A stretch of DNA of 64,000 bases, from contig CP082844.1 in NCBI GenBank assembly GCA_019930625.1, forward strand, positions 1,364,001 to 1,428,000, in the 5' to 3' direction. Below are positions 28,712-35,158 of this stretch, piece after piece. Made by a program: the position numbers and the translations under genes. The notes under the pieces were generated by a model. That model searched no databases. It was not told the origin of the DNA and saw nothing but the letters and a program-made list of their open reading frames with translations. Within the stretch, counting starts at the first letter, position 1; the number at the start of each line of letters is the position of its first letter. The stretch is from Nocardia asteroides. GTDB taxonomy: Bacteria > Actinomycetota > Actinomycetes > Mycobacteriales > Mycobacteriaceae.

Positions 28712-28764
28712 GCTCTGCGCGAACGCCCACGACAGAGCCCGTCCAGAGGCTCCATACTCGTCAG

Positions 28765-30432
28765 GTGACTTCACCCGCTGCTACGAAACCGGCCATCCTG
28801 AGCGTCGATGACGATCCGGGTGTTTCCCGGGCGGTCGTGCGCGACCTGCGCCGCCGTTATGGCGCCGATTACCGGATTCTGCGCGCGGAATCGGGTGCGC
28901 AAGCGCTCGACGCGCTTCGCGAGATGAAGCTGCGCGGCCAGCCGGTCGCGGTATTGATCGCCGACTATCGGATGCCGGGCATGGATGGCATCGAGTTCTT
29001 GGAGCAGGCCATGGACCTGCACCCCTACGCGCGTCGCGTGCTGCTGACCGCCTATGCCGACACCAATGCCGCGATCGACGCGATCAACGTCGTGGACTTG
29101 GACCACTACCTGCTCAAGCCGTGGGATCCGCCGGAGGAGAAGCTCTACCCGGTGCTGGACGGCCTGCTGGAGGCCTGGCGCAGCAGTGAGCATCGTCCGG
29201 TCACCGAGACGAAGGTGGTCGGCAATCGCTGGTCGCCGCGCTCGTCGCAGGTGCGGGAGTTCCTCGCCCGCAACCAGCTGCCCTACCGGTGGTACCTGGC
29301 CGACGAGCCCGAGGGCGCGCGGCTGCTGGAGGCGGCGGGAGCCGACCCGGAGCGCTGTCCGGTGGTGATCACCTCGGCGGGCGAGGCGCTCGTGCAGCCC
29401 ACCGACAGCGAACTGGCGCAGAACGTCGGCCTGACCGTCGACCCGGCGGGCGAGTTCTACGACCTGATCGTGGTCGGCGGCGGTCCCGCCGGTCTCGGCG
29501 CGGCGGTCTACGGCGCGTCCGAGGGTTTGCGCACGGTGCTCGTGGAGCGGACCGCCACCGGCGGACAGGCCGGGCAGAGTTCGCGCATCGAGAACTATCT
29601 CGGCTTCCCCGACGGCCTGTCCGGCGCGCAGCTGGCCGACCGGGCGCGGCGGCAGGCCGCGAAATTCGGCGCGGAGGTGATCACCACCCGCGAGGTGGTC
29701 GGGCTGGAGGTCAACGGGTCCGCGCGCACCGTGCGGTTCGCCGACGGCGGCAGCCTGTGCGCGCACACCGTGATCATCGCGACCGGCGTCGACTACCGCC
29801 GCCACCCGGCGCCCGGCGTCGACGACTTCACCGGGCGCGGCGTCTACTACGGCTCGGCCATGACCGAGGCCTCCGAGTGCGCCGATCACGAGGTCTACAT
29901 CGTGGGCGGCGCGAACTCCGCGGGGCAGGCCGCAGTGTTCCTGTCCCGCAACGCGCGCACCGTGCACCTGGTGGTCCGGGCGGATTCGCTGGAACAGTCG
30001 ATGTCGCACTACCTGATCCAGCAGATCGCGCAGATCGCGAACATCGAGGTGCACACGAACACCGAGGTGATCGCCGCCGACGGTGGCGATCACCTGCAGC
30101 AGATCGTGCTGCGCGACAACCGGACCGGAGCCGAGGAGAAGGCCGACGCGGAGCGGCTGTTCCTGTTCATCGGCGCCGCGCCGCAAACCGATTGGCTCGA
30201 CGGCGTGGTCACGCGCGACAGCGCCGGTTACGTGCTCGCCGGGCCGGACCTCATGGTCGACGGCGCGCGCCCCGCCGGCTGGGAACTACCCCGGCCCCCG
30301 CATCATCTCGAGACGAGCGTGCCCGGTGTGTTCGTGGCAGGCGACGTGCACGCCGAATCGGCCAAGCGCGTCGCCTCCGCCGTCGGCGAGGGTGCGATGG
30401 CCGTCATGCTCGTGCACCGCTATCTCGCCTGA
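28765..30432 (+). CDS. Response regulator - thioredoxin-reductase-like fusion
   Basis: A 555-residue fusion. Residues about 10-130 form a receiver domain: acidic pocket at 15-17, phospho-acceptor Asp67 in IADYRMPGMDG, Thr95 and Lys118 (LLKPW). About 150-215 resembles a glutaredoxin-like fold without the CxxC pair (RWSPRSSQVREFLARN, CPVVITSAGEALVQPT). From about 222 comes a TrxB-type flavoprotein: FAD motif VVGGGPAGLGAAVYGAS, NADPH motif IVGGANSAGQAAVFLSR and FVAGDVHAES. The usual redox CxxC after ATG-x-x-Y is missing (GSAMTEASECADHEV), so it is not an ordinary thioredoxin reductase. GTG start with CATACT 6 nt upstream. First gene of a three-gene unit. Confidence 0.88.
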   Translation: MTSPAATKPAILSVDDDPGVSRAVVRDLRRRYGADYRILRAESGAQALDALREMKLRGQPVAVLIADYRMPGMDGIEFLEQAMDLHPYARRVLLTAYADTNAAIDAINVVDLDHYLLKPWDPPEEKLYPVLDGLLEAWRSSEHRPVTETKVVGNRWSPRSSQVREFLARNQLPYRWYLADEPEGARLLEAAGADPERCPVVITSAGEALVQPTDSELAQNVGLTVDPAGEFYDLIVVGGGPAGLGAAVYGASEGLRTVLVERTATGGQAGQSSRIENYLGFPDGLSGAQLADRARRQAAKFGAEVITTREVVGLEVNGSARTVRFADGGSLCAHTVIIATGVDYRRHPAPGVDDFTGRGVYYGSAMTEASECADHEVYIVGGANSAGQAAVFLSRNARTVHLVVRADSLEQSMSHYLIQQIAQIANIEVHTNTEVIAADGGDHLQQIVLRDNRTGAEEKADAERLFLFIGAAPQTDWLDGVVTRDSAGYVLAGPDLMVDGARPAGWELPRPPHHLETSVPGVFVAGDVHAESAKRVASAVGEGAMAVMLVHRYLA

Positions 30433-30447
30433 TCAGGAGGCTGCCAG

Positions 30448-31950
30448 ATGACTTCGAACCCGACCGCGGACCGCCGTAGCCGGCTGGTCTGCGACCCCGC
30501 CGAGCTGCGCACCTTGTTCCTGTTCGAGAAGCTGAGCGACGAGCAGCTGGCCTGGCTGTGCGCCGACGGCCGGATCGAGACCATCGAGCCGGGGGTCGTC
30601 TACCACGAAGGCGAACCGGCCACCTGCCTCTACGTGCTGATGGACGGCGAGGTGGTGCTCACCAAGCAGTCCAGCGGCGCGGAGATCGAGCTGGTCCGCA
30701 CCGACCACCGCGGCTCATACGCGGGGGCGTGGATGTCCTACATCGGCGACAAGGTCGAGCAGACCTACAACAGCTCGCTGCACGTGACGCGGCCGTCGCG
30801 GTTCTACGTGCTCGACGCCGAAGTCTTCGCCCGGATGATGCGCGAGTGGTTCCCGATGGCCGTCCACCTGCTCGAGGGCGCGTTCTTCGGCAGCCGCAAC
30901 ACCAATGCGCGCATCGGTGAGCGCGAACGGCTGCTCGCGCTCGGTTCGCTGTCGGCGGGTCTCACCCACGAGCTGAACAATCCGGCCGCCGCCGCGGTGC
31001 GCGCCACCTCGGGTCTGCGCGAGCGGGTCGCGGGCATGCGGCACAAGCTGGCGATGATGGCGGAAGGCAAGTTCGACGCGGCGTCCTTGGGCGCCTTGGT
31101 GCGCCTGCAGGAGGAAGCCGCCGCCCAGGTCGCGAAGGCGCCGGAACTCACGCCGATGGAGGCCGCCGACCGGGAGGACCTGCTCGGTGAATGGCTCGAG
31201 GAGCACGGGATCGCCGACGGCTGGAACCTCGCGCCGAACTTCGTGCAGGCCGGTTTCGACACCGACTGGCTGGAGCGGGTGGCCGCCACCCTGGAGGGTT
31301 CTCCGGAGCAGGTGTTCCAAGGCGCGATCCGCTGGTTGAACTACACCATCGAGACCGAGCTGCTGATGAACGAGATCGCCGACTCGACGACGCGCATCTC
31401 CTCGCTGGTCGACGCCGCGAAGCAGTATTCGCAGATGGACCGGGCGCCCTTCCAAGTGGTCGATGTGCACGAACTGCTGGACAGCACGCTGGTGATGCTC
31501 AGCCGCAAGATCGGCGACGGGGTGCGCGTGGTCAAGGAGTACGACCGGAGCTTGCCGCAGGTGCCCTGCTACGCGGCCGAACTGAACCAGGTGTGGACCA
31601 ACCTGATCGACAACGCCGTATACGCGATGAACGGCAGCGGCACGCTGACCATCCGCACCAGGCACGAGAACGACTGCGCGGTCGTGGAGATCGGCGACAC
31701 CGGGCCGGGTATCCCGCCGGAGGCCCGCAACCGGATCTTCGAACCGTTCTTCACCACCAAGCCGATGGGCGAGGGCACCGGGCTCGGGTTGGACATCTCG
31801 TTCCGCATCGTGGTCAACAAGCACAACGGCGACATCCGGGTGGACTCCGAGCCGGGCGACACCAGGTTCACCGTCTGGTTGCCGCTTCGCCGCCCCGAAC
31901 AAGAGCAGATCGATGCCGTCGCCGCGACGATCACGGAAGGACAGTCATGA
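30448..31950 (+). CDS. Cyclic-nucleotide-binding-domain histidine kinase
   Basis: A 500-residue soluble sensor kinase. Residues about 20-135 form a cNMP-binding (CAP_ED-like) domain: LFLFEKLSDEQLAWL, EPGVVYHEGEPATCLYVLMDGEVVL. The phospho-acceptor is His174 in the H-box SLSAGLTHELNNPAAAA. The catalytic ATPase domain has the N-box NQVWTNLIDNAVYAM, G1 GDTGPGIPP, F-box FFTTKPMGEG and G2 GTGLGLDISFRIV. No membrane segment. GGAGG lies 8 nt before the ATG, and the gene follows the REC-TrxR gene by 15 nt, so that protein is the probable phosphotransfer partner. Its stop overlaps the next start (ATGA). Confidence 0.9.
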   Translation: MTSNPTADRRSRLVCDPAELRTLFLFEKLSDEQLAWLCADGRIETIEPGVVYHEGEPATCLYVLMDGEVVLTKQSSGAEIELVRTDHRGSYAGAWMSYIGDKVEQTYNSSLHVTRPSRFYVLDAEVFARMMREWFPMAVHLLEGAFFGSRNTNARIGERERLLALGSLSAGLTHELNNPAAAAVRATSGLRERVAGMRHKLAMMAEGKFDAASLGALVRLQEEAAAQVAKAPELTPMEAADREDLLGEWLEEHGIADGWNLAPNFVQAGFDTDWLERVAATLEGSPEQVFQGAIRWLNYTIETELLMNEIADSTTRISSLVDAAKQYSQMDRAPFQVVDVHELLDSTLVMLSRKIGDGVRVVKEYDRSLPQVPCYAAELNQVWTNLIDNAVYAMNGSGTLTIRTRHENDCAVVEIGDTGPGIPPEARNRIFEPFFTTKPMGEGTGLGLDISFRIVVNKHNGDIRVDSEPGDTRFTVWLPLRRPEQEQIDAVAATITEGQS

Positions 31951-32300
31951 CCGAGCAAGTCGCGGGCATCGATCCCGCGGTCCCACCCAGCGGCCCCGGT
32001 TGCCTGGAGTGCGAGCAGAACAGCGGCTGGTGGGTGCATCTGCGCCGCTGCGCCCAGTGCGGGCATGTCGGCTGCTGCGACACCTCGCCCGCGCAGCACG
32101 CGACCCAGCACGCGAAGAGCACCGGACACCCGTTCATCCAGAGTTTCGAGCCGGGCGAGGACTGGTACTACAACTTCGAAACCGAGCAGATGTACACGGA
32201 CGGACCGGAATTGGCTCCACCGCGCAGTCATCCAGCCGATCAGGGCGCGCCGGGCCCGCGTGGGCGGGTTCCGTCGGATTGGCAGGCACACATCCACTGA
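31947..32300 (+). CDS. UBP-type zinc-finger protein
   Basis: A 117-residue protein built almost entirely of one UBP/ZnF-type zinc finger. Ligand candidates are Cys19 and Cys22, Cys35 and Cys38 (CAQCGHVGCC), Cys43 or 44, and His51, His55 and His61 (HATQHAKSTGHP). After it come FEPGEDWYYNFETEQMY and a Pro-rich tail. In eukaryotes this fold binds the free C-terminus of ubiquitin; actinobacteria have no ubiquitin, so another C-terminal peptide is the likely ligand. ATG overlaps the kinase stop by 4 nt, tying it to the kinase and REC-TrxR fusion. Confidence 0.9.
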   Translation: MTEQVAGIDPAVPPSGPGCLECEQNSGWWVHLRRCAQCGHVGCCDTSPAQHATQHAKSTGHPFIQSFEPGEDWYYNFETEQMYTDGPELAPPRSHPADQGAPGPRGRVPSDWQAHIH

Positions 32301-32372: not shown

Positions 32373-32813
32373 ATGAAACGAATTTCCACCATCGTCCTGG
32401 CTGTCGGGACGGTGGGTTTCCTGCTGGCAGGCTGCGGCGGAGCGGACGAGTCCAGCGACGCGAACGCATCGCGCCAGAGTTCCCTGAGCGCGACGATCTC
32501 CGCCCCGGCCACGCGCACCACGACCGCTCCCGACGCCGCGACGACGAGCGATTCGGCGCCGACCGACACCCCGGCCACGACGAAGGACAGCGACTCCTCC
32601 CTCGGTCCCGCCTCCAGCACCACCTGCGGTGAGTTCCGGAAGCTGGACACCGACGCGGAGAAGGCGCTGATCGAGCAGATCCTGGCGGAAAACCCGGGTG
32701 GCCCGTTCGACGGCAGTCCGAACGTCGCGCTGGGCACGGCCAAGCTGGTGTGCCTGTCGCCGAGCGTCGCCGACACCTCGGTCGCGGTGGCCGCCGGAAT
32801 CGTGCGGAAGTAG
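32373..32813 (+). CDS. Secreted lipoprotein, unknown function
   Basis: A 146-residue protein with a lipoprotein signal peptide (MKRISTIVLAVGTVGFLLAGC, lipobox LAGC, Cys21). A Ser/Thr/Ala-rich linker of about 60 residues leads to a small C-terminal domain: STTCGEFRKLDTDAEKALIE, ILAENPGGPFDGSPN, LVCLSPSVADTSVAVAA. The two cysteines there probably form a disulfide. The domain plan (C-E-F-x-x-L-D-x2-A...V-x2-A) is like small mycobacterial lipoproteins with a HdeA/DUF732-like domain, but I cannot assign it firmly. Not part of the upstream operon by obvious coupling (72-bp gap). Confidence 0.75.
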   Translation: MKRISTIVLAVGTVGFLLAGCGGADESSDANASRQSSLSATISAPATRTTTAPDAATTSDSAPTDTPATTKDSDSSLGPASSTTCGEFRKLDTDAEKALIEQILAENPGGPFDGSPNVALGTAKLVCLSPSVADTSVAVAAGIVRK

Positions 32814-32890
32814 CCGGTAGATCGCGGTCCGCGGCCATACCGAGACGACGGACCGTGACCGAGGGCGGGGGCGCGCGGCAGAATGGCACA

Positions 32891-35158
32891 GTGGCAGAAC
32901 TGGCACTCACCGCCCGCCTGAATCCCTCGGCCGCCGACGCCCGGCGGGGGGTGGTCCGACTGCATCCGGAAGCGCTGACCGCGCTGGGGTTGCGGGAGTG
33001 GGACGGAATCATGCTGGTCGGCTCACGACGCACGGCCGCTGTGGTCGGCGTCGCTCGCCAGGGAACGCCCGCCGGGGTCGCCCTGCTCGATGACGTCACG
33101 CTGTCCAACGCCGGACTGCGCGAGGATTCGACGGTGGTGGTCTCCCCCGCGACCGTCTACGGCGCGAAACAGATCGCGGTGAGCGGCTCGGTGCACGCCA
33201 CCCGCACGATCCCGGCCGCGACACTGCGGCAGGCGCTGCTCGGGAAGGTCGTCACGGTCGGCGACGCGGTCTCCTTGCTGCCGCGCGACCTCGGACCCGA
33301 CATCAGCTCCACGGCCGCCACCTTGGCGCTGTCGCGCACCTTCGGGATCGCGTGGACCACGGAGTTGCTCACCGTCACCGCCACCGATCCACGCGGGCCG
33401 GTGAGCGTGCAGCCGAATACCGCGGTGGTCTGGGGCGCGGGAGCGGTCGCCGCGCGGTACGCCGCCGATCTGGCCTCGGCCGGGACCCCGATCCCGGTTG
33501 GCGAGGCCTCGCGCGGCGCCACCGAAGCCGCCGTCTTCGGCACGGCGGCGGGCAACAACGGCGTCGCGACCGGGCGGACCGCGGCGGCCAGGGACACCAC
33601 GCCGAGCATCTCGGTCGATGACCTGCCGGGAGTGCGCGGCCAAGCCGCGAAGCTCGACGAATGGCTCAGTCTCGCCTTGGACGAGCCCGAACTGCTGCGC
33701 ACGCTCGGCGCACGACCTCATCTCGGCGTGCTGATCACCGGCCCGGCCGGCGTCGGCAAAGCCACTCTGGCCAGGGCGGTCGCGTCGCCGCGGCGCGTCG
33801 TGGAACTCGACGGTCCCACCATCGGTGCGGCCGAGAGCGGCGCACGGCTGCGCGAAGTCGCCGAGGCGGTGGCCGACATCGGCTGCGGCCAGGGCGGCGT
33901 CCTGCTGATCACCGACATCGACGCGCTGCTGCCCGCGGATGCCGAGCCGGTCGCCACGCTCATCCTCGACCAATTGCGCGCCGCGATCGCCGAACCCTGC
34001 GTCGCGTTCCTCGCGACCACGGCGCACCCCACCGGAATCGACCAGCGACTGCGGGCGCCCGACCTGTGCGACCGCGAACTCGCGCTGCCGCTGCCCACCG
34101 CCGCCGTGCGCAAGCAGCTGCTGGAACAGCTGCTGCGCAAGGTGCCGACCGCGGAGCTGAAACTCGACGAGGTCGCCGCGCGCACGCCGGGCTTCGTGGC
34201 CTCCGATCTCGCGGCGCTGTGCCGGGAGGCGGCGCTGCGCGCGGCGTCGCGGGCCAGGGAGCACGGCGAACCGCAGCTCACCCAGCCGGACCTGCTCGGC
34301 GCGCTGGAGGTCATCCGGCCGCTGTCGCGCTCGGGCATGGAGGAACTCGCCATCGGCAGCCTGGGTCTGCACGACGTCGGCGACATGGTGGAGACCAAGC
34401 AGGCGTTGACCGAGGCGGTGCTGTGGCCGCTGCGGCACCCGGACTCCTTCGCCCGCCTCGGCATCGAACCGCCGCGCGGGGTGCTGCTCTACGGCCCGCC
34501 CGGCTGCGGCAAGACTTTCCTGGTGCGCGCGCTGGCGGGGACCGGTCAGCTCAGCGTGCACGCGGTCAAGGGCGCCGAGCTGTTGGACCGGTGGGTCGGT
34601 TCGTCGGAGCGGGCGGTGCGCGAACTGTTCCAGCGAGCGCGCGATTCGGCGCCCTCGCTGATCTTCCTGGACGAGGTGGACGCGCTGGCCCCCCGCCGCG
34701 GCCAGAGCGCCGACGCCGGCGTCGGCGACCGAGTGGTCGCGGCTCTGCTCACCGAGCTCGACGGCGTGGAACCGCTGCGCGACGTAGTGGTTCTCGGCGC
34801 GACCAACCGCCCCGATCTGATCGACCCGGCGTTGCTGCGGCCGGGCAGGTTGGAACGGCTGGTCTTCGTGCCGCCCCCGGATGCCGCCGCCCGCAGGGAG
34901 ATCCTGCGCACGGCGGGCCGCGCGGTGCCGCTGGCCGACGACGTCGACCTCGAAGCCCTCGCACAGCAATTGGACGGCTACTCAGCGGCCGACTGCGCCG
35001 CGCTGCTGCGCGAGGCCGCGCTCACGGCGATGCGCCGGGACCTGCAAGCGGCCGACGTCACCGCGGATGACGTGCAGGCCGCCCAAACGGTGGTGCGGCC
35101 ATCGCTCGACCCGTCGCAAGTCGACGCGCTGCGCCGCTACGCCCTGGATCGAGGATAG
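32891..35158 (+). CDS. p97/Cdc48-like double AAA ATPase (Rv0435c homologue)
   Basis: A 755-residue AAA protein. Residues 1-185 are a Cdc48-like N-domain (VVRLHPEALTALGLREWDGI). D1 has GPAGVGK at 284-290, but the next residue is Ala instead of Thr/Ser, and its Walker B reads LLITDIDALLP instead of a D-E pair, so ATP hydrolysis there is doubtful. D2 is intact: GPPGCGKT at 535-542, Walker B LIFLDEVDALAPRRG and second-region-of-homology text LGATNRPDLIDPALLRPGRLERL. The family remodels or unfolds proteins. GTG start with CAGAAT 6 nt upstream. Neighbour of psd-pssA in M. tuberculosis, here 6.7 kb away. Confidence 0.92.
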   Translation: MAELALTARLNPSAADARRGVVRLHPEALTALGLREWDGIMLVGSRRTAAVVGVARQGTPAGVALLDDVTLSNAGLREDSTVVVSPATVYGAKQIAVSGSVHATRTIPAATLRQALLGKVVTVGDAVSLLPRDLGPDISSTAATLALSRTFGIAWTTELLTVTATDPRGPVSVQPNTAVVWGAGAVAARYAADLASAGTPIPVGEASRGATEAAVFGTAAGNNGVATGRTAAARDTTPSISVDDLPGVRGQAAKLDEWLSLALDEPELLRTLGARPHLGVLITGPAGVGKATLARAVASPRRVVELDGPTIGAAESGARLREVAEAVADIGCGQGGVLLITDIDALLPADAEPVATLILDQLRAAIAEPCVAFLATTAHPTGIDQRLRAPDLCDRELALPLPTAAVRKQLLEQLLRKVPTAELKLDEVAARTPGFVASDLAALCREAALRAASRAREHGEPQLTQPDLLGALEVIRPLSRSGMEELAIGSLGLHDVGDMVETKQALTEAVLWPLRHPDSFARLGIEPPRGVLLYGPPGCGKTFLVRALAGTGQLSVHAVKGAELLDRWVGSSERAVRELFQRARDSAPSLIFLDEVDALAPRRGQSADAGVGDRVVAALLTELDGVEPLRDVVVLGATNRPDLIDPALLRPGRLERLVFVPPPDAAARREILRTAGRAVPLADDVDLEALAQQLDGYSAADCAALLREAALTAMRRDLQAADVTADDVQAAQTVVRPSLDPSQVDALRRYALDRG

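Follow-up and report, generated by a model that had tools for sequence, protein, structure and literature searches.

What might a UBP zinc finger do in a bacterium, when such fingers are best known as readers of ubiquitin and bacteria are without ubiquitin? The question is raised by three consecutive genes of Nocardia asteroides, located at positions 28,765 to 32,300 of a 64,000-nucleotide stretch of contig CP082844.1 (positions 1,364,001 to 1,428,000 of the forward strand; hereafter "the window"). We use the terms RT, HK and ZF for the genes and their products: a thioredoxin-reductase-like flavoprotein with a receiver domain in front, a soluble histidine kinase, and a UBP-type zinc finger protein. 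With a probability of about 0.5, we read them as a soluble cytosolic two-component system whose output would be a flavoenzyme rather than a transcription factor, in which ZF would be an adaptor, and which would serve in redox or protein-damage stress. This reading builds on the anatomy, conservation and gene order of the three proteins, on the association of the kinase with one class of receiver, and on the position of ZF beside the reductase core in four architectures; phosphotransfer, catalysis, docking by ZF and the role in stress are what it predicts. The features are as follows, in window coordinates.

28753..28758, + strand: likely -10 element CATACT, 6 nt 5' of the RT start codon (putative leaderless-type promoter)
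28765..30432, + strand: RT gene, receiver, glutaredoxin-like and thioredoxin-reductase-like flavoprotein, 555 aa, GTG start
28795..29133, + strand: RT receiver domain, residues 11-123, phospho-acceptor Asp67 (Pfam PF00072, Response_reg, 56.4 bits)
29209..29424, + strand: RT glutaredoxin-like fold, residues 149-220, Ser-x-x-Ser replacing Cys-x-x-Cys (from the secondary structure of an AlphaFold2 (AF2) model and residue counts)
29452..30429, + strand: RT thioredoxin-reductase-like FAD/NAD(P)H core without CxxC, residues 230-555
30448..31950, + strand: HK gene, soluble histidine kinase, 500 aa
30505..30897, + strand: HK N-terminal CRP/FNR-like sensory domain, about residues 20-150, phosphate-binding Arg absent (Pfam PF00027)
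30967..30984, + strand: HK H-box HELNNP, His174
31579..31890, + strand: HK HATPase_c domain, residues 378-481 (92.9 bits)
31947..32300, + strand: ZF gene, UBP-type zinc finger protein, 117 aa
32001..32192, + strand: ZF zinc-finger core, residues 19-82, with C19, C22, C35, C38, C43, C44, H51, H55 and H61
32202..32297, + strand: ZF conserved actinobacterial C-terminal tail, residues 86-117

The three open reading frames lie exactly where the initial annotation had placed them, with a 15-nt gap between RT and HK and a 4-nt overlap between HK and ZF, and a single operon would be the best explanation of this layout. A CATACTCG box is found directly 5' of the RT GTG in all 21 of the Nocardia loci L092-L112, where the CATACT box is kept while much of the upstream DNA diverges; L113 has a shifted near-copy. 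The placement of the box would fit a leaderless mRNA spanning the whole RT-HK-ZF unit.

Co-occurrence and gene order across actinobacterial genomes had been named beforehand as a test of the unit, and the triad does recur. A ZF-based contig scan, covering the best 80 of 104 confirmed loci and biased to close relatives, contained RT and HK upstream of ZF in the same order at 40 of the 80 loci, belonging by record title to Nocardia, Streptomyces, Kitasatospora, Rhodococcus, Aldersonia and Antrihabitans. Two of these triads (L131 and L134) appear to be disrupted. With each start set to the in-frame codon closest to the preceding stop, the start of ZF overlaps the end of HK by 4 nt at 32 of 39 triads, as does the start of HK with the end of RT at 17 of 39. 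The closest ZF relatives bearing names are from Nocardia. Within a sample of 118 genomes of that genus, a receiver-bearing RT (REC-RT) occurs in 108, a close ZF (E 1e-49 or better, weaker ZF matches being only those among the matches listed) in 106, and both in 104 (Fisher p 3e-8). For 87 of the 109 Nocardia REC-RT hits, a same-strand ZF lies less than 4 kb downstream; in 18 further cases ZF is at another place in the genome or on a different contig, and in 4 there is no close ZF. Given those 18, ZF may act in trans. One genome (G097) has HK and ZF in a single 586-codon open frame, with a second ZF on the other side of RT.

The pairing of the kinase with the receiver flavoprotein, likewise proposed at the outset, is found at the gene level. 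Among 198 genomes sampled from the phylum, 25 of the 31 HK hits are found no more than 500 bp from a REC-RT, every one on the same strand; the other six are four tandem copies within 3 kb, one unlinked copy and one on a contig fragment, and all 24 HK-bearing genomes hold a REC-RT. By profile models of the kinase and CRP-like parts, with presence taken at E 1e-4, the kinase adjoins every REC-RT of the window's class among L175, L177-L179, L210-L219 and L248, and in L176 (Nostoc edaphicum) a kinase without a CRP-like match is 2.6 kb from the REC-RT. RT-HK pairs without ZF are present on plasmids of Deinococcus, Caballeronia, Nostoc (C052) and Gloeothece. Twenty of the Nocardia loci with a non-REC reductase were fetched. 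All of them lack the kinase within 4 kb, and in 17 the CRP-like domain is on the reductase itself. These class-wise architectures suggest two routes for one kind of sensory domain, by way of a kinase and receiver or straight to the core. This swapping of the CRP-like domain between kinase and core is our main argument that HK signals to RT, which we regard as very probable from the gene arrangements, and that the core is the output.

A quick tree of the core, which gave long-branch warnings and from which two rows were dropped (one with a stop, one short), largely separates the architecture classes. The CRP class has a support of 98 (L184 falls outside, L203 inside) and the REC class without the kinase 99; the REC class with the kinase is less firm at 91, with L210 and L215 outside and the receiver-less L221 and L222 inside. 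As an observation apart, L214 and L217 each have three CRP-like histidine kinases in a row beside one REC-reductase.

The residues needed for a phosphorelay are in place on both sides. The receiver with Asp67 described initially stands: besides the Response_reg match, the acid pocket, phospho-acceptor, Thr and Lys of two-component response regulators (D15, D16, D67, T95 and K118) are found in every one of 64 distinct receiver-bearing relatives. In HK, the HELNNP H-box was rightly called clear, His174 being invariant in all 78 covered of 80 distinct relatives. HK has both the H-box and the HATPase_c domain of histidine kinases; its Pfam HisKA match is under the cut-off (14.3 vs 26.9 bits). Because the genes are conserved together and the kinase goes with a receiver class, a relay from the kinase to Asp67 that would gate the flavoprotein is the best reading, the phosphotransfer being suggested by gene association. 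HK would autophosphorylate on His174 and pass the phosphate to Asp67 of RT, and the phosphorylated receiver would open or close the NAD(P)H/FAD reaction of the core.

The signal that HK might perceive is less clear. A cyclic-nucleotide-binding phosphate cassette carries Glu and Arg. The cNMP_binding family (PF00027) does match HK, at 32.6 bits vs a cut-off of 27.5, as the initial annotation had it; the canonical phosphate-binding cassette, however, is absent from the window's HK and present in 2 of 76 relatives (4 of 76 have Arg at the aligned position), which makes nucleotide binding by the kinase doubtful. In the CRP-type reductases, a by-eye reading of printed slices and the alignment has the cassette Glu mostly kept and no Arg at that place. 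The ligand that the domain would bind is probably something other than a cyclic nucleotide. The only matches of the domain among solved structures are to DNR (E 2e-6), a heme/NO sensor, and heme or NO sensing by HK is on this analogy a lead, not a result.

Two cysteine pairs are missing from RT, as first annotated. The glutaredoxin-like segment has the beta-alpha-beta-alpha-beta-beta-alpha fold in the AF2 model at residues 149-220, and at its CxxC (or CxxS) active site reads S157-P-R-S160; residue 157 is Ser in 103 of 108 covered relatives, and none of the 108 has Cys at both 157 and 160. The core matches Pyr_redox_2 (108 bits) and reads G363-S-A-M366 at the reductase CxxC position, with no Cys at 363 or 366 in the 108 covered of 110 distinct relatives. 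An outgroup, the 35% relative L208, keeps both reductase cysteines and is the sole exception in a second set of 108; since it has Cys at both places, the 363/366 columns are confirmed. Loss of the reductase CxxC is, in the sequences aligned, general to the RT family and not specific to the window. The FAD and NAD(P)H fold of TIGR01292 is present in RT, which scores 223.9 bits against the TrxB cut-off of 343.45 and so falls below it; another gene of this genome scores 395.7 bits. All 50 listed Foldseek matches to the core are thioredoxin reductases and AhpF (E 3e-32 to 3e-27), and the glycines of the dinucleotide-site motifs and an NSAGQ stretch are invariant across 19 aligned proteins. With no Cys pair in either domain, the normal thioredoxin-reductase cycle is impossible and an outside acceptor is needed, to which the flavin electrons would go. 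We consider it likely that RT performs flavin chemistry without a disulfide of its own.

The same residues allow the signal to be read in the reverse direction. RT would then be a redox sensor, in which the NAD(P)H/flavin state of the core would set the lifetime of phosphorylated Asp67 or feed back on HK, with the output elsewhere, perhaps through ZF. The loss of both catalytic Cys pairs while the FAD/NAD(P)H glycines and other residues stay invariant fits this, and a soluble kinase that has a ligand domain of its own would allow for two inputs. HK, however, already holds a sensory domain, and the sister class fuses the same kind of domain to the reductase, which places the core downstream; nor was a second response regulator present among the ten neighbours scanned. 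We find RT as the sensor improbable, and prefer the core as output of the kinase.

ZF is a UBP zinc finger by fold and zinc ligands (zf-UBP, 51.2 bits vs a Pfam cut-off of 22.7), and C19, C22, C35, C38, C43, C44, H51, H55 and H61 are invariant where covered. The protein had been called a bare finger; the finger holds, but "bare" does not, as actinobacterial members share a tail reading PGPxGRVPxDW. In ubiquitin readers an Arg contacts the C-terminal Gly of ubiquitin (R221 of USP5, R1155 of HDAC6). USP16 aligns with ZF without gaps, CGR against CCD, so that Asp45 sits where the reader Arg would be. Asp occupies position 45 in 111 of 115 covered relatives, and the core reads CC[D/N/E] in 156 of 156 distinct cores, a count that includes only cores fitting the motif pattern, non-fitting rows having been dropped unseen.

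It had been suggested that ZF recognises a C-terminal tail, possibly that of Pup. This was discarded as the leading explanation because of Asp45 in the place of the carboxylate-reading Arg and because of ZF genomes without Pup: in 10 of the 45 ZF genomes of the phylum sample no Pup gene was detected, meaning no PF05639 match at the default limit in genomes that are partly incomplete. Proteobacteria, Deinococcus and cyanobacteria have ZF relatives as well, found on plasmids of Rhizobium, Agrobacterium, Burkholderia, Deinococcus and Nostoc, groups not known to have Pup. Across the phylum, ZF and Pup are indeed correlated (odds ratio 5.9). The association of ZF with the reductase family, however, holds both with and without Pup. 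Over the 198 genomes, ZF and reductase are both present in 31, ZF only in 14, reductase only in 12 and neither in 141 (p 6e-16); the corresponding counts are 24, 11, 8 and 49 in Pup-positive genomes and 7, 3, 4 and 92 in Pup-negative genomes. Reading of a protein C-terminus, Pup included, is accordingly very unlikely.

A finger that reads something other than a free C-terminus has a precedent. According to one study, the UBP finger of human USP20/USP33 binds not the ubiquitin tail but an internal [KR]xxL[NED] motif, which it recognises with acidic residues (PMC13376213). The likeness to the role we propose for ZF lies in the internal motif; the difference is that USP20/USP33 are human deubiquitinases, whose acidic residues are at most possible counterparts of Asp45. 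ZF would similarly use an acidic pocket, suited to internal basic motifs, to dock a client or target.

ZF stands beside a reductase in four architectures: REC with HK, REC alone (L209 only, 1 of 18), CRP-type, and bare. Because of this, its partner is probably the shared reductase core. A plainer explanation is that the neighbourhood is a stress regulon and nothing else, with ZF and RT co-expressed, never touching and each acting alone. The 18 of 109 Nocardia cases with ZF away from RT or on another contig, the 4 in which it is missing, and the many ZF genes that stand alone are in keeping with this; the 4-nt overlaps of 32 of 39 triads, the adjacency in four architectures and the shared HK-ZF frame of G097 point instead to a physical link, and we hold independent action to be unlikely.

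The proposed stress role comes from a sister module. Of 22 Nocardia non-REC reductase hits, 20 of which were fetched as loci, 15 have ZF directly upstream on the same strand. In all 14 ZF-bearing loci GrpE, DnaJ, CbpM, ClpB and TrxA genes lie upstream in the same order, so that ZF and a CRP-type RT end a GrpE-DnaJ-CbpM-ClpB-thioredoxin operon; the six ZF-less loci contain these genes in none. Four Nocardia or Rhodococcus plasmids have the chaperone operon by annotation, three with DnaK and GrpE in view. The sister module would be a parallel form of the window's unit, with the CRP-like domain fused to the core, without such a kinase, in a DnaK/DnaJ/ClpB/thioredoxin operon, and it is because of this shared operon that redox or protein-damage stress is the most likely setting of the module. 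By this analogy, a function in stress or proteostasis is in our estimate evenly poised. Paraburkholderia has a bare reductase and ZF beside a Clp-type ATPase with Hsp20 and PsiE, or HdeD, genes, a neighbourhood that recalls the loci of heat resistance. The sister module is like DnaK-ClpB operons and these loci in its GrpE-DnaJ-CbpM-ClpB-TrxA run or its Clp-type ATPase, Hsp20, HdeD and PsiE neighbours; the window's triad, unlike them, is not in such an island. A paper on loci of heat resistance mentions a sodium/hydrogen antiporter (PMC4563881). In Microbacterium (L145:6485-8317), a fusion of an NhaA antiporter with a DsbA/thioredoxin domain is directly 5' of a CRP-type reductase and ZF.

The cysteines lost from RT could conceivably be supplied by ZF. 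It would then be a thiol relay, with RT reducing C43-C44 in trans and ZF passing the electrons on or, as a redox switch, releasing zinc. All 115 covered relatives keep both C43 and C44 (and the 156 pattern-fitting cores above the CC pair), and C44 replaces the Gly of the USP16 CGR and, by the usual ligand assignment, should not be a zinc ligand. Yet C44 is equally invariant in zinc fingers not beside a reductase, including a copy fused to an antiporter, and the sister operon has an ordinary thioredoxin with WCAPC beside ZF. We give this possibility little credence, somewhat more than we give to reading of a C-terminus, and keep to ZF as an adaptor.

The antiporter-fused copy is in the same genome (L002:1486-3156, near 6.13 Mb), as a C-terminal UBP zinc finger with the same CCD motif on a Na+/H+ exchanger, and similar "cation:proton antiporter" proteins are found on Deinococcus plasmids. 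Because of this second copy ZF has other uses, and is a module with several of them.

Several observations weigh against the adaptor-bearing two-component reading, that fusion of the genome's second ZF to an exchanger being one. Only 14 of 61 ZF hits of the phylum are within 8 kb of a reductase; at 33 of 40 non-triad ZF loci no reductase above 80 bits was found. ZF is missing near the RT-HK pairs of Deinococcus, Nostoc, Gloeothece and Caballeronia, and from the fetched stretches around the CRP-type or bare reductases of L184, L186, L187, L199, L201, L202, L204 and L205. A second REC-reductase class (38-47% identity) has this kinase within 4 kb at none of 18 loci, two of which (L243 and L251) have less than 1 kb of contig downstream; because of this class, a receiver alone does not imply an HK-type kinase. 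The non-REC locus L188 adjoins a large, unrelated-looking open reading frame with kinase matches and no CRP-like match. The AF2 model of RT is poor over most of the receiver, where docking could not be judged. As for stress, the triad is not beside chaperone operons: the 80 scanned loci contain ClpB once, Hsp20 twice and universal stress protein 15 times, and queries for GrpE, DnaJ, CbpM and TrxA gave no matches among them. With so few chaperone neighbours of its own, the triad is given its stress role by analogy with the sister module. In L203, which belongs to another family of the phylum, GrpE, DnaJ, CbpM, ClpB and TrxA lie beside a reductase without ZF, so the tie between the chaperone genes and ZF is not a strict one.

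Some of these features resemble known systems. TrxB and AhpF share with RT the FAD and NAD(P)H domains and their fold, and AhpF carries an N-terminal thioredoxin-like domain, which resembles the RT layout; RT differs in the absence of CxxC from either domain, in the receiver in front and in its score below the TrxB cut-off. The class named by NCBI "cyclic nucleotide-binding domain-containing thioredoxin-disulfide reductase" has the same glutaredoxin-like segment and reductase core and sometimes lies beside ZF, but has a CRP-like domain in place of REC and no kinase of the HK type. The disulfide activity in that name is not supported by the aligned residues, and the unit exposes a class named thioredoxin reductases without the residues for that reaction. 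Response regulators joining REC to a thioredoxin reductase have been noted in print as a "Mycobacterium-like combination" (PMC5847659), the same two-domain idea as RT; unlike the triad described here, the passages available from that paper include no kinase, zinc finger, lost cysteines or function for the REC-reductase. The closest solved relative of ZF is RPA1320 of Rhodopseudomonas (PDB 2ida), a bacterial UBP zinc finger deposited as a hypothetical protein. A single search gave 6882 homologues of ZF. No paper naming RPA1320 was found in the library searched, nor, among the results listed, was a function for the triad, the REC-reductase fusion or bacterial UBP fingers, most subscription papers being outside that library. 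With this unit, the bacterial UBP finger family would acquire a recurring partner, a scheme of control and a functional context. A wider idea, and a speculative one that we think improbable, is a ubiquitin-free UBP zinc-finger pathway in bacteria, in which a CC-D finger reading internal basic motifs of damaged or client proteins and a cysteine-less flavoprotein, with swappable kinase-receiver or fused CRP-like input, would feed redox repair or triage of the proteins that a DnaK-ClpB-thioredoxin machine handles.

The remaining neighbours appear to be local. Downstream of the triad are a small lipoprotein-like open reading frame (32373-32813) and an AAA+ ATPase with a CDC48 N-domain (32750-35158, + strand). 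The ATPase was considered as a member of the unit and set aside, a similar gene being 3' of the triad in 13 of the 80 loci, all Nocardia. A LuxR-type AAA regulator downstream and a DUF4032 gene upstream, mostly in Streptomyces, were judged clade-local. A role in anti-phage defence was dropped, as PADLOC matched 0 families for RT, HK and ZF. Stand-alone ZF genes of the Actinoplanes type (L156:9485-9952, L163:9482-9973) lie 3' of an aminoacyl-tRNA editing domain protein, whose cluster is seen in 6 loci; we draw no link from these editing proteins to the unit. Near the REC-reductase on Deinococcus and Nostoc plasmids are genes for low-temperature-requirement protein A (L175, L176, L178), and 5' of the REC-reductase in cyanobacteria (L176, L178, L179) are glgX and an AGE-family epimerase gene. 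On a Tsukamurella plasmid (L183:7556-9264), genes for S-(hydroxymethyl)mycothiol dehydrogenase and an MBL-fold hydrolase lie 3' of the triad.

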